Source: Bacteroidales bacterium
GTDB lineage: Bacteria; Bacteroidota; Bacteroidia; Bacteroidales; UBA932
Reading direction: 5' to 3'
Length of the DNA: 49,341 nt
Assembly: GCA_017473705.1 (NCBI GenBank)
Contig: JAFUJQ010000032.1
Span: 1 to 49,341, forward strand
Translations under genes and position numbers: made by a program
In this document: piece after piece, positions 32,975-49,341 of the stretch
Layout: every line of letters begins with the position of its first letter
Position numbering within the stretch: the first letter of the stretch is position 1
The notes under the pieces: model-generated
The model's input: the letters and a program-made list of their open reading frames with translations, nothing else
What the model was told of the DNA's origin: nothing
Databases searched by the model: none

Positions 32975-34096
32975 ATGAAGAAGATATTATTTATGGCATT
33001 GTGCCTTGCGGCTGCAGCCTGCTCATCAGTAAAGGAAGTGGAACTCATCCCGACATCGTCTTTTGAGACAGAAGCAGATGGCAAGCAGGTTTCTCTCTAC
33101 ACCATTGCTGCCGGAGACCTTACGATGCAGGTGACAAATTTCGGTGGCAGAGTAGTTACTCTATGGACTCCTGACAAGGATGGAAACTATGAGGATATAG
33201 TCATGGGTTACAATAACATAGAGACTTATGTCAACAATCCTGGCGAGCGTTTCCTCGGTGCGGTAGTGGGACCATACGCAAACCGCATCGCAAACGGGAC
33301 CTATACAATAGGTGAAGAGACATATACATTCCCTCAGAACAACAACGGACAGACTCTGCACGGCGGCCTCAAGGGCCTTGACCTTGTCGTATGGGATGTA
33401 GAAGAGGTGACTGACAGCACTCTCGTCCTGTCATATCTCCATGTAGACGGCGCAGAAGGCATGCCGGGCAATCTAAAGGTTGTCATGACATATGCCCTTA
33501 CATCGGATAATGAGTTCAAGGTGGACTATGTTGCCGAGACTGACAAGGCGACTCATGTGAACATTTCACATCACTCATTCTTCAACCTCAAGGGAGAAGG
33601 CAACGGCACGATCAACGACCATATATTATATATAAATGCGTCTGATATCACTCCGGTCAACCCTGTCCTCATCCCGTCGGGAGAGATCGCGGACGTTACC
33701 GGCACTCCGTTCGATTTCCGTCAGGCAAAGGCCATAGGTCAAGACCTGGGAGTTGAGAATGAGCAGCTTGCGAACGGTGGAGGATATGATCATAACTGGA
33801 TCCTTGACCGTCAGACTCCTGACCAGATGGAGCTTGCTGCATCTGTATATGAACCTGTGTCAGGCAGATTCATGGAAGTATACACCGACCAGCCTGCACT
33901 CCAGTTCTATGGCGGAAACTTCTTTGACGGCACGACGGAAGGCAAATACGGAAAGGCGCTCAGATACCGTGAGTCTTTCGCTCTCGAGACTCAGAAATAT
34001 CCGGATACTCCGAACCACAGCAATTTCCCGTCAACCCTCCTTAATCCTGGAGAGACATACACACACAGCTGCGTATACAGGTTCTCAGTAAAATAA
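32975..34096 (+). CDS. galM: Lipoprotein aldose 1-epimerase
   Basis: The enzyme interconverts alpha and beta anomers of galactose and other aldoses. The N-terminus MKKILFMALCLAAAAC ends in a lipobox with Cys16, so the protein is probably membrane-anchored outside the cytoplasm. The catalytic residues are in TLHGG, NISHHSFFNLKG (His) and ESFALETQ (Glu). The 373-residue length fits the secreted Bacteroidales form. Together with the secreted beta-galactosidase it suggests extracytoplasmic handling of galactosides. Confidence 0.93.
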   Translation: MKKILFMALCLAAAACSSVKEVELIPTSSFETEADGKQVSLYTIAAGDLTMQVTNFGGRVVTLWTPDKDGNYEDIVMGYNNIETYVNNPGERFLGAVVGPYANRIANGTYTIGEETYTFPQNNNGQTLHGGLKGLDLVVWDVEEVTDSTLVLSYLHVDGAEGMPGNLKVVMTYALTSDNEFKVDYVAETDKATHVNISHHSFFNLKGEGNGTINDHILYINASDITPVNPVLIPSGEIADVTGTPFDFRQAKAIGQDLGVENEQLANGGGYDHNWILDRQTPDQMELAASVYEPVSGRFMEVYTDQPALQFYGGNFFDGTTEGKYGKALRYRESFALETQKYPDTPNHSNFPSTLLNPGETYTHSCVYRFSVK

Positions 34097-34102
34097 TATG
34101 AC

Positions 34103-34137
34103 AAAATGTCAGTCCGACCAGACTGGCATTTTCTTTG
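34103..34137 (+). terminator. Terminator after galM
   Basis: A 12-bp stem with one G-T pair (34103-34114 with 34121-34132) and a 6-nt loop is followed by TTTCTTT. It separates galM from groS. Confidence 0.75.
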
Positions 34138-34171
34138 CCTTTTTCATGCCGTCTCGACAGAGTCCTCTCCT

Positions 34172-34207
34172 TGTCATCTTGAGCGAGCGGAGCGAGTCGA
34201 GAGATCT
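34172..34207. repeat. Dispersed GTCAT...GAGCGA repeat upstream of groS
   Basis: The unit begins TGTCATCTTGAGCGAGCGG and ends TCGAGAGATCT. It belongs to the same family as the two units between groS and groL. It lies 27 bp before the groS ATG, in the leader or promoter region. Confidence 0.75.
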
Positions 34208-34234
34208 GAAAAACGAAATTTTAATACCATTAGT

Positions 34235-34500
34235 ATGATAAGACCATTAGCAGACAGAGTCGTCATCGAGCCAAAGGCCGCTGAGACTCAGACAGCGTCA
34301 GGACTCTTCATTCCTGACACAGCAAAGGAAAAACCGCAGCAGGGAACAGTCGTAGCGGCAGGCCCGGGCAAGAAGGACGAGCCTATGGAGGTAAAGGTAG
34401 GCGACGTAGTGATCTACGGCAAATATGCAGGCACTGAAGTCTCAGTAGACGGAAAGGACTACCTCATAATGAAACAGTCAGACATCCTGGCAATACTATA

Positions 34501-34501
<1 letters not shown>
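34235..34501 (+). CDS. groS: Co-chaperonin GroES
   Basis: This is the heptameric lid of the GroEL folding chamber. The 88 residues start [17 protein letters not shown] and show the mobile loop ([21 protein letters not shown]) and ILAIL end typical of GroES. The frame extends to 34106, but that part runs through a terminator and a repeat. ATG 34235 is therefore the start. No CIRCE operator (TTAGCACTC inverted repeat) is visible upstream. Confidence 0.97.
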
Positions 34502-36230
<1,729 letters not shown>

Positions 36231-36244
36231 TCCTTCCATCATAT

Positions 36245-36287
36245 AAAAAATGACAGCCGGGCGGTCCTTCACAGGTGCCGCCCGGCT
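36245..36287 (-). terminator. Terminator of the left SusCD operon
   Basis: A 10-bp GC stem (36255-36264 with 36278-36287) is followed on the minus strand by GTCATTTTTT. It lies within the outer inverted repeat and may also stop groL transcription. The mirror copy on the right has the same stem but lacks the T run. Confidence 0.7.
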
Positions 36288-36320
36288 TCGTCAATATTTA
36301 TGTAGTTAACCAGAAGGTTC
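36250..36320. repeat. Outer inverted repeat, left copy (71 bp)
   Basis: These 71 bp match the reverse complement of 48811-48881 at 70 positions. The repeat includes a GC-rich hairpin and the core TCAATATTTATGT (36291-36303) followed by AGTTAAC. The same core occurs in the inner repeats at 42084-42096 and 43020-43032. It ends 3 bp from the stop codon of the left lipoprotein gene. Confidence 0.92.
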
Positions 36321-36322
36321 CA

Positions 36323-37132
36323 TTAGAGAACTTCAAGTACGATGAAGAGGTTAGGGTACTCTCCGAATGAACCGGCAGATACAGTCCAGCCGAAATCGAA
36401 CTGGAATACGTTGCAGTCAACATCCATGAGTGAGCCTGCTGGATATGTAACATATGCTGCGTTTACAACATTGGCAGTAATGCCGCCATAACTTGGGTGA
36501 TAGAGACCGGTTGCGTATGATGCGCTTCCAGGAACCACCTTCTCAGTGCCATCCCATGTGAAAGTGATGTCAGTTGCACCTGTGAGCCATGGGTCGGAAA
36601 TGCGATACTCATCTCTAAGCGCAGAGTATTCAAGTACCTTCTCATAGTAATCCTCAGCCCAGAATATGTCGTAGTACAGACCGTTTGCATATGGAACATA
36701 GTCTTCCTTTACAACATTAGCGATGTATGTAGGGCCGACTTCTGTCACAGCATACGCGTGTGTGTACTCTTCTGGAACAGTGAGAGTGATCTGATAGTCA
36801 GTGAACATCTCTACGTCGCCTACCTGAACCTTTACAACTACACTGTCTTCTCCTGCAGCAAACTCTACAGTCTCCGGTGCAGTGAAGATGCCATCGATAA
36901 CGCATACGCTCTTAAGTGGAACGCTCAAAGCTGCAGTCGCATCGTCTCTGAGGACAGCAACCTCGAATTCGGTAGCGTCAGAAGCAAGTGTCACGTCTGA
37001 ATTGTTATATGCACTGAAGTAGACGTTAGGGCCATTCTCATCCATAGGGGCACCTGGCTCATATGGGACAGACTTGTCGCAGGCTGCAAGAGCAGCAACA
37101 GCTAAAGCCATAAGTATAATATTCTTTTTCAT
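36323..37132 (-). CDS. SusCD-associated lipoprotein (left operon)
   Basis: This is a likely surface lipoprotein with a lipobox at Cys18 (LMALAVAALAAC). The mature part is beta-rich, with a Calx-beta-like stretch (VYFSAYNNSDVTLASDATEFEVAVLRDD). It has no catalytic motif I recognise. Such third genes often encode glycan- or peptide-binding accessory proteins. It is 269 residues and third in the left operon after susC and susD. It shows no clear similarity to the third gene of the right operon. Confidence 0.75.
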   Translation of the reverse strand: MKKNIILMALAVAALAACDKSVPYEPGAPMDENGPNVYFSAYNNSDVTLASDATEFEVAVLRDDATAALSVPLKSVCVIDGIFTAPETVEFAAGEDSVVVKVQVGDVEMFTDYQITLTVPEEYTHAYAVTEVGPTYIANVVKEDYVPYANGLYYDIFWAEDYYEKVLEYSALRDEYRISDPWLTGATDITFTWDGTEKVVPGSASYATGLYHPSYGGITANVVNAAYVTYPAGSLMDVDCNVFQFDFGWTVSAGSFGEYPNLFIVLEVL

Positions 37133-37151
37133 ACTTGTACAATTTTAAGAA

Positions 37152-38816
37152 TTACTCAGTTGGTACGATGAGGAGACCTGATGGATCCGGATTGTTGGTA
37201 GATTCGTCGATACCTACGTTAGCCTGGAACTCACCACGGTTGATTACGAAGTTCCACTGAGGTGAACGTCCTGTAGTGTTGAATGCCCACATTTCAGGAT
37301 GGTTAGAACCCTCGTAGTATCTTGTAATACCCTTGTCAAGTCTCTTGTAGTCGTAGTAGAGGACACCCTCTGCCCAGAACTCGATTCTCTTCTGAGTCAG
37401 CATCTCAGTGATGAACCAGTCAACACCTGTTGCAACCTCTGAGCAGTCATAGCTGCCGTCAGTCACACGATATGCCATGAACTCGTTGAGGAGAGTCTTC
37501 GCCTTGCTGAGATCGTACTGTGCGACTGCCTCCATCTCGATGAAGTAAAGCTCTTCAACGCGGAGCAGACAGTGGTCTGCAGGGTTACCTGTTGTATACT
37601 CGCTGCAGTTTCCTTCTACAGGACGGAACTTGAGTGATGTATAAGGCTTTGCATAGTAGTTAAGGAAATCAGACTGCTCTGCAGGTGTACCGGCAAATTT
37701 GTAAGTGCCGGAAGTCCATTCTGCAGGGTTAGGACTAAGGTATGATTTCTTTCTGAAGTCCTTGTCGTTGATCTTCTCATAGAGGTTCCTGTCGATACCA
37801 GGGTTTGAGAGAGTTGTGTAACCCCACTGACCCTCGCAGCAGATGTGTGCTGTGTAGCAGATGATGTTACCGATAAGGTCAACTGATACCGGGAGACCCC
37901 AGATCCATGAGTTGTTTGCTGAACCGCTGTTGAAGCCTGTTGTAGGGTTTGTCCACTCAGCCTCAGTGAGAGGAGTCTTGCCGCTGGTTGTGATGGCCAG
38001 ACGTGCATATTCAGCAGCCTTCTTGAATGCGTCCATGTCTCCACCTTCCTTCCAGTATCCCATTTCGAGATAAGCCTTTGCATACATTGCGTATACAGCA
38101 GCAAGGGTAGGCTGAGTGTATGAATTACCTGCGTTGGCAAGCATCTCTTCAGCCATCTTGAGGTCGCTGAGGATGAACTCATACATCTGTTCTCTTGGAA
38201 CGCGTGGGTTGTTTCCGAGTTCCTCTGCAGTTGTCTTCTCTGTCACGATTGGAACTGTAAGGCCGAGAACCTTTGATACGTCAGTATAGTCATTTTCCTT
38301 TGGCTCGTACATACGTGCGAGGTCGAGGTAGCACATTGCGCGGTATGCATAACCCTGTCCGAGGTAGTTCTTGTTGAGCTCAGGCATGTCATCGCTCACC
38401 TCGATCACTGAGATCACGTCGTTAGCGATCTTGATATATGCATAATAGTTCTCCCAGAAGTAACCTACAGGCCATGACTGGTCGTTCATGCCGACGTTGC
38501 GTGACCAGTAGTTGAAAGACCAGTATCCTGGGTTTGCACCCATGATTGCGATATCCTCGAGCATTGCGTCTGTCATAAGGTGGATAGCCGGAATACCGAA
38601 GTCAACGTGAGTTCCATACTTCGAGTAGAAGTCTCTTGTGTCAATCTTCATCATTGCTACAGGGAAGGAGTTAACAAGTCCTCCAAGAGCGAATTCCGAT
38701 GCTCCAACCTGATCTGCAACCTGAGTCGATCCCTCAGGGAAGGCCTCTTCTATACATCCTACCGCCAACATAGGAGCGATAAGAGCTGCGATTATCTTAT
38801 TTGTAAGTCTTTTCAT
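37152..38816 (-). CDS. SusD/RagB-family nutrient-binding lipoprotein (left operon)
   Basis: This is the surface lid of a SusC transporter and binds the substrate. A lipoprotein signal ends at Cys21 (LIAPMLAVGC). TPR-like helices carry the family pattern AYRAMCYLDLARMYEP, then PIVTEKTTAEELGNNPRVPREQ, YAMYAKAYLEMG, and a C-terminal EFWAEGVLYYDYKRLDKG. At 554 residues it is normal. It follows susC by 27 bp. The substrate cannot be deduced; no glycoside hydrolase gene is in this operon. Confidence 0.93.
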   Translation of the reverse strand: MKRLTNKIIAALIAPMLAVGCIEEAFPEGSTQVADQVGASEFALGGLVNSFPVAMMKIDTRDFYSKYGTHVDFGIPAIHLMTDAMLEDIAIMGANPGYWSFNYWSRNVGMNDQSWPVGYFWENYYAYIKIANDVISVIEVSDDMPELNKNYLGQGYAYRAMCYLDLARMYEPKENDYTDVSKVLGLTVPIVTEKTTAEELGNNPRVPREQMYEFILSDLKMAEEMLANAGNSYTQPTLAAVYAMYAKAYLEMGYWKEGGDMDAFKKAAEYARLAITTSGKTPLTEAEWTNPTTGFNSGSANNSWIWGLPVSVDLIGNIICYTAHICCEGQWGYTTLSNPGIDRNLYEKINDKDFRKKSYLSPNPAEWTSGTYKFAGTPAEQSDFLNYYAKPYTSLKFRPVEGNCSEYTTGNPADHCLLRVEELYFIEMEAVAQYDLSKAKTLLNEFMAYRVTDGSYDCSEVATGVDWFITEMLTQKRIEFWAEGVLYYDYKRLDKGITRYYEGSNHPEMWAFNTTGRSPQWNFVINRGEFQANVGIDESTNNPDPSGLLIVPTE

Positions 38817-38843
38817 AATTACATTCTTTTACTTTGTTGGACA

Positions 38844-41800
38844 TTAGAATGTGATGTTGATACCGCCTGAAACGGTACGGATAGGTGAGTTGACTGAGTA
38901 GTTAGTCGATCCGCTGAATGAGTAGCGTGGATCAAGACCCTTTCTGTATGACCAGTAAACGATGTTGTCGCAAGCTACATAGATGCGGAGTCTGTTCACC
39001 TTGAACTTCTTGGTTACTCTCTCTGGAAGAGTGTATCCTACCTGTGCGTTCTGGAAGTTGAGATAGCTTGCAGGAACGAGGAATCTGTCAGAAGTTGAAG
39101 CTGGATAGAGGTCGCCATACTGCCATCTTGGAATGTTGGAGTCTCTGTTCTCCGGTGTCCATGCGAGGAAGATATCCTTATGGTAGTTGTCTCCACCACC
39201 TGTTGAAGGGTTTGCCATGTATGAAGCATAACCTGAGTCATAAGTAAGACCGCCTACAGAGTATGTGAAGTTTGCAGAAACGTCGAATCCGTAGAAGCTG
39301 AGTGATGTACCGAAACCACCATAGAAGAGTGGAGTAGGGTCGTCACAGAGATAGTCTGTAGCCTCATCATAAACGTTTGTAGTAGTCTGACCTGTCACAT
39401 TGCCCTTGTCGTCGGTAATGTCCTTGTACCAGAGAGCCTCACCGGTGTTCTTGTCTACACCTGCATACTTAGGCATGAAGAATGTGTTGAGCGGAAGACC
39501 TTCAGCAATGAACTTGTTACCTGTCTCGTATCCCTCATAACCCTCATGTACCTGTCTCTTGTTCTTCTCAGGGAGACGGATGACCTTATTGGTGTAGTGT
39601 GTAGCGTTTGCGTATACATCCCACTGGAAGTTCTTCCTGTTGAAGATGTTTACATTGAGGTCGATCTCGACACCGGCATTTCTCATGTCACCGATGTTGT
39701 CGTAGTATCCGCTGTATCCTGAAGATGTTGCAACGTTGAAGAAGAAGAGCATGTCAGATGTCTTACGATAGAAGTACTCTACCGAACCTGAGATCTTGTT
39801 TGCGAGAAGACCGAACTCGACACCTGCATTGAAGTTGGCGTTGGTCTCCCAAGTGATGTTCTCGTTACCCTTTGTGCTGAAAGTGGTAGCGATCTGGCCC
39901 TCGAGATTCTCGACAACATATGTGTCAGTATAACGGTAGTTACCGATGTTGTCGTTACCCTGTGAACCGTAAGAAGCCTTAAGCTTGAGCATGTTCACCC
40001 ATGAAGCGTTGAACCAGTTCTCCTCGTTGAGAAGCCATGCTGCTCCGACTGACCAGAAGTTACCCCAACGGTGATCAGGATGGAAGCGTGACGATGCGTC
40101 GCGACGATATGATGCGTTGAAGAATACTCTGTTGGCGAAGTCATACTGGAAGCGTCCCAGGTAACCCTCGTTGTTGTACATAGACTTTGAAGAGTATGAG
40201 CTCTCTCCGTCTACAACTGCTCCACTGAGCTCGTTGTTGTCGATTGAGAACATCTTTGACCTGCTTGCTCCGAGGTTATATCCATATGACTTGTAAGACT
40301 CATGTCCGAGGAGTACGCTGATTGTGTGAGCGCCAGCGAAAGTCTTGTCATAAGTAAGGAGCTGCTGGAGGTTGATGTACTGTGACCTTGAGTGCTCCTT
40401 TGAAACGATACCGCCGTTAGGAACGAACTGTCCGTAGAATGGGTTCTTTGTGCTTGTGCTTCTTGTCTCATCGATACCTGTACCGACGTTGAAAGTGAAC
40501 TTGAATCCATCGAAGAACTCAACCTCAGCGAAACCTGTCATGTTGAATGCGTTTCCTTCGCTGTTGTTCTTGTTGAGGGTGATCTCCTGAAGAGGGTTGG
40601 CTCCCTGGAGGTATGGACGTGTAAGACCAGCGTTTGCACCTTCACCATAGTCATGGATCTTGTATCCGCGGCCGTCGAGCATGATGTTCTTGTTTGCATC
40701 GCGGAGGTATACAGGGTAGATAGGAGCTACTGAAGAAGCGAATGCGAATACGTTTGCAGTCGATCCGCTGCTACCTTCGTTAGCGTTGCTGTTGTTCCAG
40801 TTGAAGTTGGTGTATGCCATGTTTGCACCCACCTTGAGCCACTTCTTTGCCTGGTAGTCAGCCTTGAGACGTGCAGTATATCTGTACATGTCGTTACCTG
40901 TAACGATACCCTTGTTGTTGAGGTATCCGAATGATGCCAGATAAGAACCGTTGCCTGATCTTCCTGCCACGCTTACGTTGTACTCCTGACGGAGGCTCTT
41001 GCGGTAAGTCTCGTCGATCCAGTTGTCAGGTGCTACCCAGTATTCTACTCCGTCCGGACCTGTTACAAGGCGACCGAGAGTTGCTGCAGGGTTTACCTTT
41101 CCGTTTGTACCGATGAATGCCTGGTTCTCAGGAACTGTGAATACCTGATATCCGAGACCGCCTTCCTTAGGAGAGCCTGCTACTACTGAACTTGCCTTGA
41201 GGTGTGCGTCCATTGCGCTGAGACCTGCGGCATTTGAATAGTAGTTGCGGAGAGCTGTGTAGTGAGCCTCATAGTACTGAGCAGGGTCTGTGATAACGTC
41301 ATACTCCTGGAGAGCCTTTGAGTTCATACCCCACTTTGCGTCAACAGTAACGACTGCTTCACCAGCCTTTGCCTTCTTTGTAGTGATCATGATGACACCG
41401 TTCGCACCACGTGCACCGTAGAGGGCGTTTGATGCTGCGTCCTTGAGGACTGTCATAGACTCGATGTCGGCAGGGTTGATATTGTCGATGTCTCCTGAAT
41501 AAGGCACACCATCAACGATGTAGAGAGGGTCATTTCCCGCGTTGATTGATGTGAATCCACGGATGCGGATTGTCGGAGAGCTTCCGAGTGAACCTGAAGA
41601 TGTGGTCATCTGCACGCCGGCAACTCGTCCTTCGAGTGCGCGTGTCACGTCTGATGACTGCACCTTGGCAATCGCGTCGGAACTAACGACTGTTGCCGAA
41701 CCTGTGAAGGCCTCCTTTGTAGAGGTACCGAATGCTACGACGATTGTTTCATCGAGGTAGTTGATGTCCTCTTTCATAATAACCTTTACTGGTTGTGACT

Positions 41801-42062
41801 GAACAGGAACAGAAGCGGTACTGTAACCCAGGAAAGTCACGATGAGCTCTTTGGCGTCAGCAGGGACATTCCTGATACCGAATTCTCCTTTGTCATTTGT
41901 AATGGTACCGAGTGTTGTTCCGTTTACGAGCACGTAAGCTCCAACAACCGGCTGACCATCACTTTCTGATACGACTGTACCCGAAACTGTCAGGGTCTGA
42001 GCCGTAGCGATGCCTATGCTGGCTATCAGCAAGGCGATCATCAACATTAGGGATCTTTTCAT
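38844..42062 (-). CDS. SusC/RagA-family TonB-dependent transporter (left operon)
   Basis: This is an outer-membrane beta-barrel importer powered by TonB. A signal peptide (1-21) is followed by a CarboxypepD_reg-like domain (about 23-100), a TonB-box region (ETIVVAFGTSTKEAFTGSATVV), a plug domain (IRIRGFTSINAGNDPLYIVDGVPY ... ALYGARGANGVIMITTKK) and a barrel to residue 1072. The first 125 residues are close to those of the right SusC, while the barrel differs widely. The leader carries the left inner inverted repeat. I find no TAnnTTTG box facing this gene between its start and the recombinase, so it looks silent in this orientation. Confidence 0.95.
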   Translation of the reverse strand: MKRSLMLMIALLIASIGIATAQTLTVSGTVVSESDGQPVVGAYVLVNGTTLGTITNDKGEFGIRNVPADAKELIVTFLGYSTASVPVQSQPVKVIMKEDINYLDETIVVAFGTSTKEAFTGSATVVSSDAIAKVQSSDVTRALEGRVAGVQMTTSSGSLGSSPTIRIRGFTSINAGNDPLYIVDGVPYSGDIDNINPADIESMTVLKDAASNALYGARGANGVIMITTKKAKAGEAVVTVDAKWGMNSKALQEYDVITDPAQYYEAHYTALRNYYSNAAGLSAMDAHLKASSVVAGSPKEGGLGYQVFTVPENQAFIGTNGKVNPAATLGRLVTGPDGVEYWVAPDNWIDETYRKSLRQEYNVSVAGRSGNGSYLASFGYLNNKGIVTGNDMYRYTARLKADYQAKKWLKVGANMAYTNFNWNNSNANEGSSGSTANVFAFASSVAPIYPVYLRDANKNIMLDGRGYKIHDYGEGANAGLTRPYLQGANPLQEITLNKNNSEGNAFNMTGFAEVEFFDGFKFTFNVGTGIDETRSTSTKNPFYGQFVPNGGIVSKEHSRSQYINLQQLLTYDKTFAGAHTISVLLGHESYKSYGYNLGASRSKMFSIDNNELSGAVVDGESSYSSKSMYNNEGYLGRFQYDFANRVFFNASYRRDASSRFHPDHRWGNFWSVGAAWLLNEENWFNASWVNMLKLKASYGSQGNDNIGNYRYTDTYVVENLEGQIATTFSTKGNENITWETNANFNAGVEFGLLANKISGSVEYFYRKTSDMLFFFNVATSSGYSGYYDNIGDMRNAGVEIDLNVNIFNRKNFQWDVYANATHYTNKVIRLPEKNKRQVHEGYEGYETGNKFIAEGLPLNTFFMPKYAGVDKNTGEALWYKDITDDKGNVTGQTTTNVYDEATDYLCDDPTPLFYGGFGTSLSFYGFDVSANFTYSVGGLTYDSGYASYMANPSTGGGDNYHKDIFLAWTPENRDSNIPRWQYGDLYPASTSDRFLVPASYLNFQNAQVGYTLPERVTKKFKVNRLRIYVACDNIVYWSYRKGLDPRYSFSGSTNYSVNSPIRTVSGGINITF

Positions 42063-42078
42063 AGTGTTGATTTTAGTT

Positions 42079-42139
42079 GTTAAACATAAATATTGATAGT
42101 TCTTACACTACACTTCGTTATATTGCACTTAAAAACGAG
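42079..42139. repeat. Inner inverted repeat, left copy (recombinase site candidate)
   Basis: Three blocks match the reverse complement of the right copy exactly: 42079-42101 (23 bp), 42104-42115 (12 bp) and 42123-42139 (17 bp), separated by short mismatched spacers. The 23-bp block holds the central palindrome AATATT (42089-42094) with partial dyad symmetry. It lies in the leader of the left susC. Confidence 0.9.
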
Positions 42140-42158
42140 CGATTAAAACATCAGAACT

Positions 42159-42755
42159 ATGTCAACTTATGCTTATGTAAGAGTCAGTACAATGCTGCAG
42201 TCCAATGCAAGTCAGGAGTATGAAATCAGAAAATATTGCAGACAGAACCACATCAGGGTGGACAAGTGGGTAACAGAATCGATTTCCGGAACAGTTGCAG
42301 TTGAAAAAAGGGATCTCGGAGCGCTGATAGATGCAATGTCCGAGGGAGACACTCTCATCTGCACCGAACTTTCACGGCTGGGACGCAACATGCTTATGAT
42401 CATGGGGATATTGAATCTGTGTTCGTCCAAAGGGATATCCATTCATACGATAAAAGACAACTTCGACCTGTCCGACAGCATCAATTCGAAAATAATAGCA
42501 TTTGCCTTTGCGCTTGCGGCAGAGATAGAGAGGAACCTTATATCGCAACGCACGCGTGAAGCTTTGGCAGTCAAGAGAATGGAGGGCGTAAAGCTCGGAC
42601 GGCCTCCCGGGAGTTCGAGAAAAAGAAGACTTGTAAAGTCAGAGATCGGAAAGATAGACAAACTCATATGTGCGGGACACAGCATTACGGAAGTGGCTCA
42701 TATGTACGGAGTCCATAGAAATACACTGAGAAAATACCTGAAGGAGCTCAGGTAA
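42159..42755 (+). CDS. Serine recombinase, DNA-invertase type
   Basis: This small resolvase/invertase forms a covalent DNA link through Ser10 in YVRVST. The catalytic domain (1-135) has the Arg motif ELSRLGRNM and the long dimer helix with AAEIERNLISQRTREAL. A C-terminal helix-turn-helix of the Hin type follows (about 160-198: GHSITEVAHMYGVHRNTLRKYL), after a linker with KLGRPPGS. At 198 residues it matches invertases such as B. fragilis Mpi in size and layout. It lies inside the inner inverted repeats. A weak promoter-like TATATTGCAC inside the left repeat faces it. Confidence 0.93.
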   Translation: MSTYAYVRVSTMLQSNASQEYEIRKYCRQNHIRVDKWVTESISGTVAVEKRDLGALIDAMSEGDTLICTELSRLGRNMLMIMGILNLCSSKGISIHTIKDNFDLSDSINSKIIAFAFALAAEIERNLISQRTREALAVKRMEGVKLGRPPGSSRKRRLVKSEIGKIDKLICAGHSITEVAHMYGVHRNTLRKYLKELR

Positions 42756-42919
42756 GTGCAATTTTTAAAAAATATTGTCGTTTGGTCGAAATTTACGAAA
42801 TATAATAAAGGTGATTATATGATTACAGATTGTAATCCATAATCCACCACAATAGGCCTTTCTATAACCAAAATGCTGCGAATTATGCCTTATAGTTAAT
42901 ATAATGAACGTTTTAGAAA

Positions 42920-42951
42920 TTTGGAATTTTAATTTCAGTTTTTTAAATTTG
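42920..42951 (+). promoter_or_regulatory. Promoter facing the right susC, inside the invertible segment
   Basis: TTTG at 42920-42923 and TAAATTTG at 42944-42951 are separated by 20 bp. This fits the Bacteroidota -33/-7 promoter form. The transcript would start near 42957 and carry the right repeat in a leader of about 100 nt. Confidence 0.7.
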
Positions 42952-42973
42952 TGGTTCAATGGTGCGAAAAGCC

Positions 42974-43037
42974 CTCGTTTTTAAGTGCAAAATATCCTGA
43001 AAGTGTAGTGTAGCAACTATCAATATTTATGTTTAAC
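42974..43037. repeat. Inner inverted repeat, right copy (recombinase site candidate)
   Basis: This is the mirror of 42079-42139: blocks at 42974-42990, 43001-43012 and 43015-43037 match it exactly. The central palindrome AATATT is at 43022-43027. It lies 19 bp before the right susC start. Confidence 0.9.
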
Positions 43038-43056
43038 TAATTTAAAGATCAACACT

Positions 43057-46000
43057 ATGAAAAAAAGTTTATTGCTGTTGATGGCCTTGCTCTTTGCGAG
43101 TTTAGGTCTTGCGACTGCCCAGACCCTTACGGTGACGGGAACTGTTGTTGCTGAAAAGGATGGTCAGCCGGTCGCTGGAGCCTATGTGCTTGTTAATGGT
43201 ACAACACTTGGTACCATTACCAACGAGCTTGGAGAATTCGGTATCAGAAACGTACCGGCCGACGCGAAGGAAATCATTGTGACCTTCCTCGGTTATAGTA
43301 CGGTCTCAGCTCCCGTTCAGTCGGCTCCTGTCAGGGTGGTGATGAAGGAAGACACTAACTACCTTGATGATGCCATTGTCGTGGCTTTCGGCGCTACAAC
43401 CAAGGAGGCTTTTACAGGATCGGCTACAGTCGTGAAGGCCGATGAACTATCAAAGCGTCAGACAACTGATGTCACTAATGCCCTTGTGGGCAAGGTGGCC
43501 GGACTCCAGCTTAGGGGAAGCAGTGGCCAGCCCGGATCTTCCAGCGGATCGATCAATATCCGCGGTATTAGCTCGATGTATGCAGGAACTGAACCTCTTG
43601 TTATTGTCGACGGTTCGCCATATACAGCAAGTCTGACAAACATTCCTCAGTCAGACATAGAGTCAGTAACCGTGCTTAAGGATGCGGCTTCAGCTGCCCT
43701 CTATGGTGCAAGAGGAGCTGCCGGTGTCATCATCATAACCACAAAGAAAGGTAAGTCCAAGGACGCGGTCGTGAATTTCGATATGAAGATGGGTGTGAAC
43801 TCACGTGCACTGCAGGATTATGATCTGGTTACTGATCCGGGGGAATACTATGAGGCATACTATACACAGCTCTACAACAAGTATTACTATGGAGACGGCA
43901 TGCTTCACGAAGACGCTGATGCTTTGGCTAATGCGCAGATGCTCTCTGATCTTCAGTATAATGTATTCACCTATCCTGAGAACGAGAATCTCATCGTAAA
44001 CGGAAAACTTAATCCTAATGCGACTCTCGGACGCAAGGTTACTCATAACGGCACGGACTATTGGATGACTCCTGACGACTGGACAGACGCTGCTTACAGG
44101 AATAGTCTCCGTCAAGAGTACAATCTCAGTCTCAACGGCGGAACAGATCGTTCCAGCTACTATATGAGTCTCGGATATCTGAATGAGGACGGTATCGTAG
44201 AACATTCTAACTATGAGCGTATATCAGCAAGAGTAAAGGCGGACTATCAGGCGAAGAAGTGGCTGAAGGTCGGTACCAATGTGGGATATGTGCATTCGAA
44301 GCAGGACCAGAATTCAAACTGGGGAACATCTGCAAACAGCGCCAATCTGTTTGCCTACACTTCTCAGGTAGGTGCGATCTACCCGATCTATGTAAGGACC
44401 GTGGATGCTGACGGTAATGTGTCGATAAAGACTGACGAATATGGCAATCCTGCATATGACTATGGTGTGGCGGCGACAGGCTATGGAGTGACTAGACCTT
44501 ACTTGAGCACCGGTAACCCTCTTGGAGCCAACAATTACAATAGCTATAATGTCGGAGGAAACCAGCTCAATGCCAATGCGTACGCAGACATCCTCTTTAC
44601 GGATTTCCTTAAGTTGAGTGTTAACAGCACCATCATCTGGGGCAACAGTACAGCCTCTTCATTCGGAAATATGTTCTACGGATCATCAGCCGCGTCCGGC
44701 GGAGAGATTTCTAAGACAACAAGCGAAGGTTTCAGGACGAATAATGTCCAGACTCTGACATATTTCGATACATTCGGCAATCACAATGTGACAGCAATGC
44801 TCGGCCATGAGTATTATAACGCAAAGACCAAATATCTCTATGCCCATGCAAAGGGAATGTTCTCGCCTGAAATCCAGGAGATCGGAGCAGCCGCCACCAA
44901 GGATGACTCGGACTCATATTCTACAGAATACAATGTCGAAGGTTACTTCCTCAGCGCACAGTATGACTATGCCAACAGATATTATGCGTCTGTCAGCTTC
45001 CGTCGCGATGCAACATCATACTTCGCACCTGAGAACCGTTGGGGTAATTTCTGGTCTGTAGGAGCTGCCTGGATCATCTCAAAGGAGAGTTTCATGCAGA
45101 ATGCAGGATGGGTCGACCAGCTGAAGCTGAAGGCATCCATCGGACAACAGGGTAATGACAACATCGGCTCTTACAATTATGTTGACCTCTATAGTCTTTC
45201 AAAGGCTACTGATACAAGTATGAGTGCTGCCTTCTACCGCAAGGGTAATCCTAACATAACATGGGAGACAACAACAAACTTCAACGCAGGCCTCGAGTTC
45301 AGCTTGTGGAGAGGCCGTCTTAGCGGTTCATTAGATGTATATAACAAGAAGACATCGGACCTTCTTTTCTGGACATCAATCCCCGAATCTTCCGGTTCAA
45401 GAGGAATGTATGACAACATCGGAGATATCAGAAATTATGGCGTAGAGCTTTCTCTCAACGCGACCCTGGTCAGGACAAGACTAGTGGACTGGTCGGTATT
45501 CGGCAATATTTCGCACAACAAGACCAAGATTCTGACTCTCCCGCCATCAAAGATACTTACAGGGGGATTCTCGGAGAGCGCTAACGGATATGTCACCTAT
45601 TATTATAGGGAAGGCGGCGAACTCAACAATTACTATGCACCATGCTACGCAGGTGTAGATGATCTTGGACAGGCTATGTTCTATGTAGACGTCGTTACAA
45701 CAGATGAGAATGGTAATGAGGTTGTAATCGAGAAAGGCGACAAGACATATGACTTCAACGCCGCAACGAAATATGAACATGGCAGCATTCTTCCTAAGGC
45801 GTTCGGAGGTTTCGGTACCGAACTTCGCGTCGGTGGCTTTGATCTGTCTCTCATGTTCGATTATCAGCTTGGAGGAAAGGTATTTGACATGTATTATCAG
45901 GGAGTGATAGGAAGTTCGGAGAATGCTCAGGGCGCCGGAATGGCCATCCATAAGGACTGGAAGAAAGCCTGGAGTCCGACCAACACTTCAAGCAATCTTC

Positions 46001-46281
46001 CTCGCTGGCAGTATGGAGATATGTATGGTTCTGCGTCAAGTGACCTTTTCCTCACCAGTGCAAGCTATCTCAACTTCCAGTCGTTCGCTGTAGGATATAC
46101 GCTTCCTGAAAAACTTTTCAAGAACAAGTGCAAGATGCGTATTTATGCGGCAGGAGAGAATCTCTGGTTCTGGTCAGCTCGCAAGGGACTTGACCCTCGA
46201 TATGCATATGAAGGAAATGTAAGCGTGCTCAGCTATTCTCCGGCCAGAACAATTTCAGGCGGTATTCAGTTCACATTCTAA
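43057..46281 (+). CDS. SusC/RagA-family TonB-dependent transporter (right operon)
   Basis: This is the outer-membrane importer of the right operon. The signal peptide (1-21), CarboxypepD_reg-like domain, TonB-box region (VVAFGATTKEAFTGSATVV), plug (INIRGISSMYAGTEPLVIVDGSPY ... ALYGARGAAGVIIITTKK) and barrel occur in the usual order over 1074 residues. The N-terminal 125 residues nearly repeat the left SusC, but synonymous sites differ, so the pair is not a fresh duplication. The promoter inside the invertible segment faces it, so this copy looks active in the given orientation. Confidence 0.95.
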   Translation: MKKSLLLLMALLFASLGLATAQTLTVTGTVVAEKDGQPVAGAYVLVNGTTLGTITNELGEFGIRNVPADAKEIIVTFLGYSTVSAPVQSAPVRVVMKEDTNYLDDAIVVAFGATTKEAFTGSATVVKADELSKRQTTDVTNALVGKVAGLQLRGSSGQPGSSSGSINIRGISSMYAGTEPLVIVDGSPYTASLTNIPQSDIESVTVLKDAASAALYGARGAAGVIIITTKKGKSKDAVVNFDMKMGVNSRALQDYDLVTDPGEYYEAYYTQLYNKYYYGDGMLHEDADALANAQMLSDLQYNVFTYPENENLIVNGKLNPNATLGRKVTHNGTDYWMTPDDWTDAAYRNSLRQEYNLSLNGGTDRSSYYMSLGYLNEDGIVEHSNYERISARVKADYQAKKWLKVGTNVGYVHSKQDQNSNWGTSANSANLFAYTSQVGAIYPIYVRTVDADGNVSIKTDEYGNPAYDYGVAATGYGVTRPYLSTGNPLGANNYNSYNVGGNQLNANAYADILFTDFLKLSVNSTIIWGNSTASSFGNMFYGSSAASGGEISKTTSEGFRTNNVQTLTYFDTFGNHNVTAMLGHEYYNAKTKYLYAHAKGMFSPEIQEIGAAATKDDSDSYSTEYNVEGYFLSAQYDYANRYYASVSFRRDATSYFAPENRWGNFWSVGAAWIISKESFMQNAGWVDQLKLKASIGQQGNDNIGSYNYVDLYSLSKATDTSMSAAFYRKGNPNITWETTTNFNAGLEFSLWRGRLSGSLDVYNKKTSDLLFWTSIPESSGSRGMYDNIGDIRNYGVELSLNATLVRTRLVDWSVFGNISHNKTKILTLPPSKILTGGFSESANGYVTYYYREGGELNNYYAPCYAGVDDLGQAMFYVDVVTTDENGNEVVIEKGDKTYDFNAATKYEHGSILPKAFGGFGTELRVGGFDLSLMFDYQLGGKVFDMYYQGVIGSSENAQGAGMAIHKDWKKAWSPTNTSSNLPRWQYGDMYGSASSDLFLTSASYLNFQSFAVGYTLPEKLFKNKCKMRIYAAGENLWFWSARKGLDPRYAYEGNVSVLSYSPARTISGGIQFTF

Positions 46282-46293
46282 AGACAGGTAACA

Positions 46294-47913
46294 ATGAAGA
46301 CTTTATTTAAAATAATGATAGTAGCCGGGGGCTTGATACTTACCGGCTGCATAAAGGAGACAATGCCGCAGCAGAATGTCGCTACATCCGACCAGGTGGC
46401 CAATTCTCCGGGAGTGTTCCAGACATTCGTGAACACTTGCACATCATCACTTGTGGGTCAGTTCACTTACAGCGGCTCAAATATGTATCCTTGGGATTAC
46501 GGCTATCCGTCTTTTTTTCTGCAGCGTGATGTAATGGGTCAGGATATCGTCCTTGATGAGCAGGATTGGTACACCACCTGGTATGGCGTAGGAACAGGAC
46601 TCGGTCCGAGATATGCAGTATGCCAGCTTCCTTGGACATACTACTACAAATGGATCAACAACTGTAATACAGTTCTCAATATGGCCGGAGACAACCCTTC
46701 GGAGGATATGGTGCAGGGCGCAGGAATCGCTCTTGCGATGAGAGCCATGTTCTATATGGACCTTGCAAGAATGTTCCAGTACACTTACAAGGGAAATGAG
46801 GATAAGATCACTGTCCCTATCGTAACCGAGAAGACGCTTGACTTCACCAATAACCCTCGCGCCACAAACACTGAGATCTGGGCATTCATTCTCGAAGACC
46901 TGGACCGTGCTGAGAAATATCTTGCCGAGTATGTCCGCGCGGACATATACACTCCTGATGTAAAGGTTGTGTATGGACTCAAGGCACGTGCATATCTTAC
47001 TATGGAAGATTTTCCTAATGCTGAAAAGTATGCAAAGATGGCACAGGAGGGATTCTCACCTCTGTCAGAAGTCGAATATCTCGATCGTTTGACAGCATTC
47101 AACACTCCTAACCATGCATGGATCTATGGTTTGACATTCAAGTCTGACGATCCGAACATCCTTCTGAATGACTCAGACTCTAACTGGGGCTCCCAGATGT
47201 TCCTTGAAGTCCAGGATGTTCTATATGCAAGCAATTATGGCCAGCCGAAGAGAATCGACGCTCATCTGTATTCGACAATTCCTGACACTGACTATAGAAA
47301 GAAATGTTATATAGACTTTGCAATCGACAATATGGACTATGAGTCAGCTGTCGAGGCTATCAGCAAATATTCAGATTACCCGGAAAGAATCATCGCTTCA
47401 GCTGGCGCCACAACCAGTGGTGCTGTCGGAGGACTTCAGCTTAAGTTCAGAGCCGGTGGCGGAGCCGACGGACGTAATGGAAACGCTTTTGCAGCCACAT
47501 GTGTAGCAGTCCCTTTGATGCGTGTTGAGGAAATGATGCTTATCGAAGCAGAGGCGGCAGGAATGCAGGATGAAGGCCGCGGAAAGCAGCTTCTCGAAGC
47601 ATTTGCAAAGCTTCGCAACCCTCAGTATGCTTATGATGCAACTGTCTCATTCCGTGACAATGTATGGTGGCAGCGCCGAGTAGAGCTATGGGGTGAAGGA
47701 TTTGCCACATTCGACATCAAGCGTCTCAACAAGGGCGTGATTCGCAGCTATGCCGGCACTAATCATTACCCTGGAGCGAGATTCAACACTGAGACCGCTC
47801 CGTCCTGGACCAATCTGTGTATCGTGGAGACTGAAACTGAATATAACAAGGGAATCCAGGAGAATAATCCTACCCCTGTTACTCCGGAAGACTCTCCGGA
47901 ACATGTATGGTAA
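46294..47913 (+). CDS. SusD/RagB-family nutrient-binding lipoprotein (right operon)
   Basis: A lipoprotein signal ends at Cys19 (MIVAGGLILTGC). SusD family patterns include ALAMRAMFYMDLARMFQY, PIVTEKTLDFTNNPRATNTE, VVYGLKARAYLTM and the C-terminal RVELWGEGFATFDIKRLNKG. Length is 539 residues, 12 bp after susC. It shares the family framework with the left SusD but differs in most positions, so the two lids probably bind different ligands. Confidence 0.93.
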   Translation: MKTLFKIMIVAGGLILTGCIKETMPQQNVATSDQVANSPGVFQTFVNTCTSSLVGQFTYSGSNMYPWDYGYPSFFLQRDVMGQDIVLDEQDWYTTWYGVGTGLGPRYAVCQLPWTYYYKWINNCNTVLNMAGDNPSEDMVQGAGIALAMRAMFYMDLARMFQYTYKGNEDKITVPIVTEKTLDFTNNPRATNTEIWAFILEDLDRAEKYLAEYVRADIYTPDVKVVYGLKARAYLTMEDFPNAEKYAKMAQEGFSPLSEVEYLDRLTAFNTPNHAWIYGLTFKSDDPNILLNDSDSNWGSQMFLEVQDVLYASNYGQPKRIDAHLYSTIPDTDYRKKCYIDFAIDNMDYESAVEAISKYSDYPERIIASAGATTSGAVGGLQLKFRAGGGADGRNGNAFAATCVAVPLMRVEEMMLIEAEAAGMQDEGRGKQLLEAFAKLRNPQYAYDATVSFRDNVWWQRRVELWGEGFATFDIKRLNKGVIRSYAGTNHYPGARFNTETAPSWTNLCIVETETEYNKGIQENNPTPVTPEDSPEHVW

Positions 47914-47941
47914 TCATTCATAATACTTAATCGACGAAGAT

Positions 47942-48799
47942 ATGAGAAAGTTTATACATATCATTCTTGCAGCTGCTGTACTGATGTTTTCGGCTGCGTG
48001 TACTGAACAACTTGGTACAGATCCTGGAACGGATCCGGGTCCCAAAGTCACCATATATCAGTACTCTCCGGGAGACGGGTATAATAGTGACGAGGATGTT
48101 GCTTTGCGCTTTGTCACAAACGGCAAAGCAGAGAAACTTTACTATCTGGTAGAGCTTCTCGCCGACAAGGAAGCTTTTGTGGCAAATAATGGATCGGTGG
48201 CATATGCGGACAAGGTGATTTCAGAGGGTGTGGAGGTCTCTTCAGATGCCTTGACATCATACAGCGATACTCTCACCGGACTTGCAGGTACATATGCCGT
48301 GACCGCTGCTGCCATTGCAGGATCCCAAAAAGAGCTTTCAGAGAGCGTGTTCTATGGACTCTCCTGGAAAACCCTGTCTACAGGTACATATACATTTTCT
48401 GTTCTTTCCTCAATGGGCCTTGAGCCTGCAAAGACAGAGTTTCAGGTGTGTGAGACCGATCCTAACCTGTTCAGATTCAAGGATGTGTTCAAACCTGGCT
48501 ATAGTCTCAAGGTCGTAGCACTGCCTGACTATACAAATACGGATGACTACGGCACATACACCTACTGCAGAGTGCCAGTGCAGGATACAGGTTTTACATA
48601 TGGAGACTATGGTGCCATCGGCGTGCGTGACATCGGTTATTGGCAGGGAGATGCTTCATATGTGACCGATGGCGGATATGAGTCCTGCTACTATACTGAC
48701 GGACCGGAAAAGGGATATCTGTATATCTTCGTACAATACTATGTATCGGCCGGTAACCTCGGATATAACTATGACAGTTATGTTCCGGATGTAGAATAA
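47942..48799 (+). CDS. SusCD-associated lipoprotein (right operon)
   Basis: This is a likely surface lipoprotein with a lipobox at Cys20 (AVLMFSAAC). The mature protein is beta-rich and aromatic, ending YNYDSYVPDVE. I recognise no catalytic motif. It takes the same third position as the left lipoprotein gene but has no evident similarity to it. It ends 11 bp before the right outer inverted repeat. Confidence 0.72.
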   Translation: MRKFIHIILAAAVLMFSAACTEQLGTDPGTDPGPKVTIYQYSPGDGYNSDEDVALRFVTNGKAEKLYYLVELLADKEAFVANNGSVAYADKVISEGVEVSSDALTSYSDTLTGLAGTYAVTAAAIAGSQKELSESVFYGLSWKTLSTGTYTFSVLSSMGLEPAKTEFQVCETDPNLFRFKDVFKPGYSLKVVALPDYTNTDDYGTYTYCRVPVQDTGFTYGDYGAIGVRDIGYWQGDASYVTDGGYESCYYTDGPEKGYLYIFVQYYVSAGNLGYNYDSYVPDVE

Positions 48800-48810
48800 A
48801 GTCAGTTACT

Positions 48811-48881
48811 GAACCTTCTGGTTAACTACATAAATATTGACGAAGCCGGGCGGGACCTGTGAAGGACCGCCCGGCTGTCAT
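48811..48881. repeat. Outer inverted repeat, right copy (71 bp)
   Basis: This matches the reverse complement of 36250-36320 at 70 of 71 positions. It contains the core at 48828-48840 in the orientation opposite to the left copy, and a GC hairpin (48844-48853 with 48867-48876) that can end the right operon. No T run follows the hairpin here. Confidence 0.92.
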
Positions 48882-48911
48882 ATATATATCGGCCCTGACG
48901 GACCGGTCTTC

Positions 48912-48929
48912 GAAAACTTTTCAGTTTTC
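48912..48929 (-). terminator. Weak hairpin downstream of tRNA-Pro
   Basis: A 7-bp stem (48912-48918 with 48923-48929) with a 4-nt loop lies just after the tRNA on the minus strand. It has no T run, so termination is uncertain. Confidence 0.3.
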
Positions 48930-48937
48930 CTGACATC

Positions 48938-49013
48938 TGGTCGAGATGACGTGACTCGAACACGCGACCCCTACGTCCCGAACGTAGTGCGCTACCAACT
49001 GCGCTACATCTCG
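48938..49013 (-). tRNA. tRNA-Pro (anticodon CGG)
   Basis: The 76-nt cloverleaf folds fully. The acceptor stem is CGAGATG with CATCTCG. The D arm is GCGC-AGTTGGTA-GCGC, and the anticodon arm CTACG-TTCGGGA-CGTAG gives anticodon CGG. The T arm has TTCGAGT. The 3' CCA is encoded. C1-G72 with A73 fits proline identity. Confidence 0.95.
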
Positions 49014-49023
49014 ATTTAAGGAA

Positions 49024-49052
49024 AAAGCAGCAGTCGGGAAGACTGCTGCTTT
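49024..49052 (-). terminator. rpsT terminator
   Basis: A perfect 12-bp stem (49024-49035 with 49041-49052) with a 5-nt loop ends on the minus strand in a run of five T. It lies 31 bp after the rpsT stop. Confidence 0.85.
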
Positions 49053-49083
49053 CCAGCTATAAGAAAACCTCTATATATTCTTA

Positions 49084-49338
49084 TTAAGAGAGTTTGTTGA
49101 TGTAAACTGCGATACCGCTCTTAAGGTTTGCTGCCTTGTTCTTGTGGATAACGCCGATCTTTGCGAGCTTGTCGATCATTGCATAGACCTTTGGTGCGTT
49201 AGCCTCTGCTGCGGCCTTGTCTGTAGTTGTACGAATCGCACGAATTGCGTTTCTTGTTGTCTTTGCATAATACTTATTATGCAATCTGCGCCTCTCGCTC
49301 TGGCGATAGCGCTTGTCTGCTGAAGCGTGGTTTGCCAT
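49084..49338 (-). CDS. rpsT: 30S ribosomal protein S20
   Basis: This is a small three-helix protein that binds 16S rRNA during early 30S assembly. The 84 residues begin [21 protein letters not shown] and show the usual basic helices and the [16 protein letters not shown] end. The start is 3 bp inside the window edge, so its promoter is not visible. Confidence 0.96.
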
Positions 49339-49341
49339 TGT

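Follow-up and report, generated by a model that had tools for sequence, protein, structure and literature searches.

Can an invertible piece of DNA decide which of two SusC–SusD transporters a bacterium places on its surface? The question is raised by a locus of a Bacteroidales bacterium, examined here in a window of 49,341 nucleotides that covers positions 1 to 49,341 of contig JAFUJQ010000032.1 (assembly GCA_017473705.1, 2.35 Mb and 71% complete). The locus is flanked by groEL and a tRNA–rpsT pair and consists of two outward-facing SusC–SusD–lipoprotein operons with a serine recombinase gene in between. In gut Bacteroidales, SusC–SusD (SusCD) pairs rank among the major proteins of the outer membrane, and they are viewed mainly as nutrient-induced. 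A sequence-only reading of the window had proposed that the recombinase chooses between the two transporters, so that each cell would display a single one of the two uptake systems. The analysis reported here favours the same answer: very probably, the recombinase is an invertase that flips an 838-bp segment (42138–42975, unstranded), bounded by two dyads and containing the invertase gene itself together with one outward promoter, with the result that one operon is transcribed at a time. The choice itself is supported by the one-sided promoter, by matched central dinucleotides of the dyads, and by the occurrence of both orientations across species. Strict exclusivity agrees with the position of the promoter, but for this particular strain it goes beyond the evidence.

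Matched dyads and a one-sided promoter

The recombinase (198 aa; 42159–42755, + strand) was assigned from its open reading frame, profile matches and clade membership. It is a small serine recombinase with a whole reading frame, matching the Pfam Resolvase model at 112.6 bits (cut-off 23.3) and HTH_7 at 22.5 bits, just below the cut-off of 23.8. R8, S10, R51, R73 and R76 stand at the positions expected for what we take to be the catalytic residues of the family. The best NCBIfam match is the Mpi family NF009949 (248.3 bits, E 5.4e-74, profile positions 3–195 of 203). As this score lies under the curated cut-off of 272, the protein is called Mpi-like and not Mpi. It is the only PF00239 recombinase found in the source assembly, which is 71% complete.

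The inner inverted repeats of the locus comprise two pairs, 42079–42115/43001–43037 (37 nt, 95%) and 42119–42144/42969–42994 (26 nt, 88%), which extend into a repeat of 465 nt (71%) formed by the starts of the two homologous susC genes. They are built in layers: a dyad of the form AAACG-NN-CGTTT, a leader with the motifs GTGTAGTGTA and TCAATATTTATGTTTAAC, and the susC starts. The putative left crossover dyad, AATCG-CT-CGTTT (42133–42144, − strand), has one mismatch to this form, and the right one, AAGCC-CT-CGTTT (42969–42980, + strand), has two. Beyond the dyads, repeat and motif searches placed both leader motifs in the 37-nt repeat before the left (42079–42115, − strand) and the right susC gene (43001–43037, + strand).

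Whether these dyads are crossover sites was judged by comparison with related loci. A scan that covered a single genome for each species yielded 55 loci, from which L081 (Chryseobacterium, no adjoining SusC) and L086 (26% identity) were left out; the remaining 53 and the window make up the 54 loci analysed. A dyad with at most one mismatch is present in 31 of the 54 5' flanks of the invertase and in 38 of the 54 3' flanks, compared with about one in shuffled sequences. In relatives, it is at the dyad that the homology of the operons begins. The centres of the sites are CT, CC or TC, depending on the locus, and in all 28 loci with unambiguous sites the two central dinucleotides are identical, whereas permutation gave a mean of 13.0 and a maximum of 24 in 10,000 trials. 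The rest of the 54 loci lacked a site on one side or were tied; the window is among the ties, and its repeat-borne sites have CT and CT as centres. Such agreement fits strand exchange at a 2-bp overlap, which requires it. In the window, the CT centre and the 14 bases that follow are unchanged in both sites, and the extended site occurs in the source assembly only at 42124–42141 and 42972–42989 (0 and 1 mismatches, with up to 3 allowed).

The second line of evidence is the promoter. At 42920–42951 (+ strand) lies TTTG-N20-TAAATTTG, a promoter of the Bacteroidales −33/−7 type that agrees with the consensus at 10 of 10 positions and reads towards the right SusC gene; on the left side of the invertase, the consensus search found none. 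According to the passage of PMC4747536 that cites the experiment, changing the −7 box TAnnTTTG abolishes Bacteroides promoter activity. Among the related loci, the consensus (TTTG, spacer, TAnnTTTG) was sought on the 46 3' sides and 32 5' sides with a dyad, the tie at the right dyad of the window being settled by hand. At least 9 of 10 positions are matched next to the dyad on 28 of the 3' sides (2.1 expected), always 22–26 nt from the dyad centre, and on none of the 5' sides (0.35 expected, these stretches being shorter). With a stricter pattern and a limit of 450 bp, the counts are 20/54 for 3' sides and 0/54 for 5' sides (1.3 and 1.15 in shuffles). The window and the loci thus share a promoter that lies inside the segment and points outward on one side only.

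In the proposed mechanism, the invertase would bind the two inverted dyads, one of which precedes each susC leader, and strand exchange at the 2-bp dyad centre would turn the 838-bp segment round. In the assembled orientation, the promoter would drive the right operon (ON). In the flipped orientation, the same promoter would drive the left operon from nearly the same distance; calculated from the coordinates, the −7 box lies about 105 nt from the start codon on the right and would lie about 99 nt from it on the left. A clonal population would then be a mix of cells, each with one of two uptake complexes. We infer that this copy inverts and that the operon left without the promoter is silent. 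The benefit would presumably be bet-hedging, either against phage or immunity or with respect to nutrients.

It is unlikely, by comparison, that inversion of the segment only modulates two operons that also possess regulated promoters of their own and are not exclusive. Some of the promoter data agree with such an arrangement: one promoter consensus was tested, a clear promoter is also missing from 18 of the 46 3' sides, a promoter of another type may exist on the silent side, and the leader motif GTGTAGTGTA, conserved with no more than one mismatch in 24 of 83 leaders (0.4 in shuffles), could bind a regulator. The empty counts on the 5' sides by either promoter pattern, unlike those on the 3' sides, argue for the switch instead.

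Both orientations across species at one chromosomal place

Eight species carry the locus at one chromosomal place, namely that of the window and those of L032, L033, L034, L035, L037, L042 and L044. In the window, L032, L033, L034 and L042, groEL and rpsT are on one contig; in L037 and L044, groEL is on the contig of the locus and rpsT on a second one. Profile names identify the genes that follow rpsT as DUF4837 and then an M50 peptidase, and L035 shares the rpsT–DUF4837 side. The invertase reads away from groEL and towards rpsT in five of the eight (the window, L032, L035, L037 and L042) and the opposite way in three (L033, L034 and L044). Of 39 pairs of SusC orthologues with at least 80% identity, 20 have their members on opposite sides, as do 7 of the 15 pairs with at least 90%.

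A closer view is offered by L033, L034, L037 and L044, which have the groEL-side operon in common (SusC 91 to 97% identical). Since this operon is shared, the segment between the dyads appears to have turned in L037 relative to the other three, while the operon stayed in place. When the 5' side of L037 is set against the 3' side of L044, the 110 bp on the operon side of the dyad agree at 0.86 and the invertase side at 0.10 (this stretch being only 38 bp long in L037); a comparison of the two 3' sides gives 0.87 for the invertase side. L037 and L033 give the same pattern (0.89, 0.37 and 0.78, respectively).

This change of partner at the dyad also bears on the idea that there is no switching at all, the repeats being nothing but leaders that duplicated susC genes have in common, with the recombinase acting elsewhere. 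Much of the inner similarity is indeed coding homology (the 465 nt at 71%) together with shared leader motifs, and the leaders look homogenised between the operons. However, such an origin of the repeats would leave the matched central dinucleotides, the one-sided promoter, the exchange of partners in L037 versus L044 and L033, and the two orientations at one position unaccounted for, and no further copy of the extended site was found in the source assembly, 71% complete. We consider it very improbable.

Several observations weigh against the switch and are best taken together. As regards the sites, the bare dyad pattern is no rarer in the window than chance predicts (19 found, 12.7 expected), and the case rests on the comparison across loci. 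The counts from that comparison are in turn not independent, because the dyad consensus was derived from the loci that were counted and because the loci have a shared ancestry, a single invertase being common to L074, L075 and L077. A reversed control of the extended-site search likewise matched twice at up to three mismatches, and the consensus search found no promoter for the invertase gene itself. As regards orientation, no groEL was detected in the 22 kb past the other end of the L035 locus. The operon-side comparison of L037 with L034 is non-discriminating (0.75 both ways), and that of the window with L032 is not decisive (0.83 and 0.84), as the leaders are alike; the invertase sides agree better 3' against 3' in both comparisons (0.68 versus 0.43 and 0.73 versus 0.30, respectively). 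Moreover, the left leader of the window matches the 5' leader of L032 at 0.92, above the 0.83 of the right leader. Near-identical genomes in both orientations were not found among the sampled genomes, which represent one per species. Four of the 54 loci have no SusC gene beside the invertase.

The right dyad adds a further point, as its two mismatches both fall in the invertase-side half, and this copy could be weak, slow or locked. A former switch that is now locked in the state in which the right operon is ON, through drift in the invertase-side half of its right site, would account for the second mismatch, the left dyad having only one. Two related genomes also show that the invertase can be missing from this place: L106 and L107 have such operons beside rpsT, DUF4837 and the M50 peptidase gene but no invertase, L107 keeping two divergent SusC genes and L106 an operon with its leader end facing rpsT. 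A locked state nevertheless seems distinctly unlikely to us, given the whole invertase frame with its expected catalytic residues, the retention in both sites of CT as the centre and of the 14 bases after it, and comparable deviations in other two-site loci (L076 and L082).

The operons, their outer repeats and the invertase clade

What such a switch would choose between are different products. The sequence-only reading had described two complete three-gene operons pointing outward from a 198-residue serine recombinase, and open reading frames and family matches bear this out. On the left (− strand), predicted to be OFF in the assembled orientation, are SusC (1072 aa; 38844–42062), SusD (554 aa; 37152–38816) and a lipoprotein-like third gene (269 aa; 36323–37132). 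Their counterparts on the right (+ strand), predicted to be ON from the promoter at 42920–42951, are SusC (1074 aa; 43057–46281), SusD (539 aa; 46294–47913) and a lipoprotein-like third gene (285 aa; 47942–48799). Each operon thus encodes a SusC TonB-dependent barrel with an adjacent SusD. The SusC/RagA model (cut-off 368) scores the two SusC proteins at 749 and 752 bits, and in profile searches both SusD proteins match SusD-like_3. Neither third gene had a family match in these searches, and the term lipoprotein reflects a reading of the N-terminus. The SusC proteins are 51% identical, most strongly at their N-termini, the SusD proteins are 31% identical, and the third proteins, which align over the signal region at E 0.004, show no clear relatedness. 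The two operons therefore make different products. Among solved structures, RagA and SusC homologues come closest to each of the two SusC proteins, a match that does not reveal the cargo. Over the stretch between its dyad and its outer element, each operon consists of SusC, SusD and one lipoprotein-like gene; it has no glycan-degrading enzyme and does not amount to a polysaccharide utilisation locus.

Inverted repeats had been noticed on the outer as well as the inner sides, and both sets are present. The outer pair, at 36250–36320 (− strand) and 48811–48881 (+ strand), is 71 nt long and 99% identical. Each copy is a 3' element with a strong hairpin (fold z −5.1 on the left and −5.5 on the right) and an inverted copy of a leader motif, and the pair looks like a shared terminator-like element at the operon ends; to give it a part in switching goes beyond the evidence. 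That the outer repeats are crossover sites of the invertase was rejected as the main reading, for they lack the dyad and place a strong hairpin at the ends of the operons. A simple terminator scan of the left repeat called no terminator. No known RNA family was found at the outer repeat; over 34000–49341, only a tRNA passed its threshold, and a snoRNA match fell far below its own. The element is also present at L032, L033, L034, L035, L037, L042 and L044. Eleven copies, from the window and these seven loci, keep 37 invariant columns, and of 151 genomes of the genus searched with a covariance model, nine gave a match, two of them weakly. Since the reverse complement of the 5' leader motif (ACATAAATATTGA) is part of the element, the leader and tail of one transcript could pair. 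Pairing of this kind as a general feature was rejected: an inverted copy of at least 12 bases occurs in 10 of 72 sides (about 2 expected by shuffling), nine of which are the known element, so that it is confined to that clade.

The outer repeats lend some appeal to a scheme in which they recombine too and inversion takes in the entire 12.5-kb locus or one operon by itself. The two copies are nearly identical, and the 13-mer TCAATATTTATGT brackets each operon in inverted orientation: four of its five copies in the source assembly stand at the four boundaries, alternating in orientation (none in a reversed control). In addition, the right operon of the window is found on the groEL side in L032, in the opposite slot, with 86.9% identity over the whole stretch between the dyad and the far end of the outer element and 95.8% for SusC; the invertases of the two are 72% identical. 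We regard this scheme as improbable, since the outer copies are terminator-like, lack the dyad and have matches in only the few genomes just mentioned, and since a flip of the whole locus would leave the promoter-bearing operon unchanged. Replacement must have occurred as well, because the other operon of L032 differs from the left operon of the window. Similarly, L074 and L077 have identical invertases and 3' sides that are 89% identical, their 5' operons are different, and homology of about 90% resumes beyond. The two comparisons imply that operons change slot or are replaced between species. Beside inversion of the inner segment, we tentatively consider a two-slot expression site with exchangeable cassettes, a possible though doubtful extension, in which operons delimited by the dyad and the 3' element swap slots or are replaced and a single, fast-evolving invertase selects the expressed slot.

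The invertase does evolve fast: that of the window is 64–72% identical to those of L032, L033, L037, L042 and L044, compared with 93–94% for GroEL in the same genomes and up to 96% for orthologous SusC proteins. Across the 54 loci, SusC flanks the invertase on both sides in 33 (of which L072 is a decayed remnant), on one side in 17 and on neither in four. In 10 of the 53 related loci, the contig breaks off no more than 400 bp from the invertase, where 1.58 such cases are expected. These ends could stem from mixed orientations in the source and may explain many of the one-sided cases.

A tree of 67 rows was computed from 47 of the 54 recombinases, seven incomplete or over-long ones being left out, and 20 controls; its bootstrap is rough. 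One clade takes in 48 rows (support 100/97), namely the 47 recombinases and L118, which is the same locus as L085, so 19 controls are counted, all of them Mpi-like genes of the genus with 43–51% identity. SusC adjoins 45 of the 48 clade rows and flanks one of the 19 controls (L127) on both sides. The latter is a distant Mpi-like gene, 47% identical and outside the clade, that lies between two divergent SusCD operons and is apparently an independent case. The genus of the source genome includes Candidatus Cryptobacteroides, L068, the locus of Ca. C. avistercoris, having the same place in a genome listed under this genus. At least 66 of 400 sampled genomes of the genus carry the clade (at least 55% identity; a few are partial), each match being in a different genome; among the matches listed, the clade occurs once per genome. 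The arrangement was also found in another genus of the family (L168–L170, in the genomes of L076, L077 and L074). Carriage by phages was rejected: three stretches in viral contigs matched a pattern, and none of them coded for a relative.

Some loci depart from the common layout. In L059 (5368–10959), the segment is enlarged to about 5.6 kb between two identical 21-bp sites and holds genes for an AAA_14/DUF4143 ATPase, an AAA-ATPase_like/PDDEXK_9 ATPase and a sulfatase in the stretch that separates the dyad from the invertase; likewise, the SusC gene that bears the leader is about 5 kb from the invertase in L061. The contig of L167 reads as a perfect palindrome of 10.5 kb, its two invertase genes mirroring each other, and is almost surely an assembly artefact. 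Other Mpi-like genes of the genus have different neighbours: in L125 (878–4615), an Eco57I-type restriction-modification methylase, and in L117, L119, L130 and L132, as in L125, reading frames of about 1240–1410 codons. Judging by the one frame checked, that of L125, those other Mpi-like invertases may vary restriction systems.

Relation to known inversion systems

If the proposed switch is real, a hard-wired choice between two SusCD pairs would vary uptake capacity or surface identity at random within a clone; the invertase clade is present in at least about one in six of the genomes sampled from the genus. The loci would then offer simple test cases for what drives SusCD variation, be it phage, immunity or nutrient competition, and the related invertases with their differing sites would form a set for studying site choice.

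Among the closest known counterparts is Mpi of B. fragilis, whose family is the nearest to the recombinase (albeit with a score under the cut-off) and which likewise acts on invertible promoters of the Bacteroidales type. The half-sites ACG/CGT of the Mpi site, given as ARACGTTCGTN in the retrieved part of PMC8375218, equal those of the dyad described here; the centre is TT in Mpi and CT, CC or TC in these loci. According to the passages of PMC4747536 that deal with it, Mpi acts on 13 regions. Its targets are capsule loci, whereas here the targets are two divergent SusCD operons and the invertase sits inside its own segment. A global, Mpi-like master role was considered and rejected, as no further copies of the extended site were found at up to three mismatches in the source assembly, of which 71% is present. 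From this restriction of the extended site to the locus, the system gives the impression of a switch dedicated to this one place, in contrast to Mpi with its global role.

Another point of comparison is Tsr0667, a tyrosine recombinase. DNA inversion is described as varying SusC/SusD surface proteins in B. fragilis (passages of PMC4747536 and PMC12632263), and Tsr0667 is described as driving shufflon-type multiple inversions at three SusC/SusD clusters and nine other regions (PMC4747536, same passages). A varied set of SusC/SusD surface proteins would be the outcome here, too. The means differ: here, a local serine invertase with one pair of sites would flip a promoter between whole operons, which is not a shufflon. 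Inverted regions within or near SusC/SusD genes, with orientations that differ with disease, are also reported from human gut metagenomes in PMC10939037, the retrieved passages of which describe no invertase between two divergent SusCD operons. The sequence-only reading could match the arrangement to no described system, and the passages seen of the open-licence full-text literature likewise yielded no description of a serine invertase located between a divergent pair of SusCD operons. The parts are known; their arrangement appears to be new.

The locus also resembles the Hin switch of Salmonella flagella. The Hin segment has an outward promoter, and the switch works with one operon that carries a repressor of the other gene. 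As stated in the consulted part of PMC5903667, the invertase gene of Hin lies within the invertible segment. Both systems would combine an invertase inside its segment with two alternative surface states. They differ in how the second state would be reached, for here the promoter would face one operon or the other directly.

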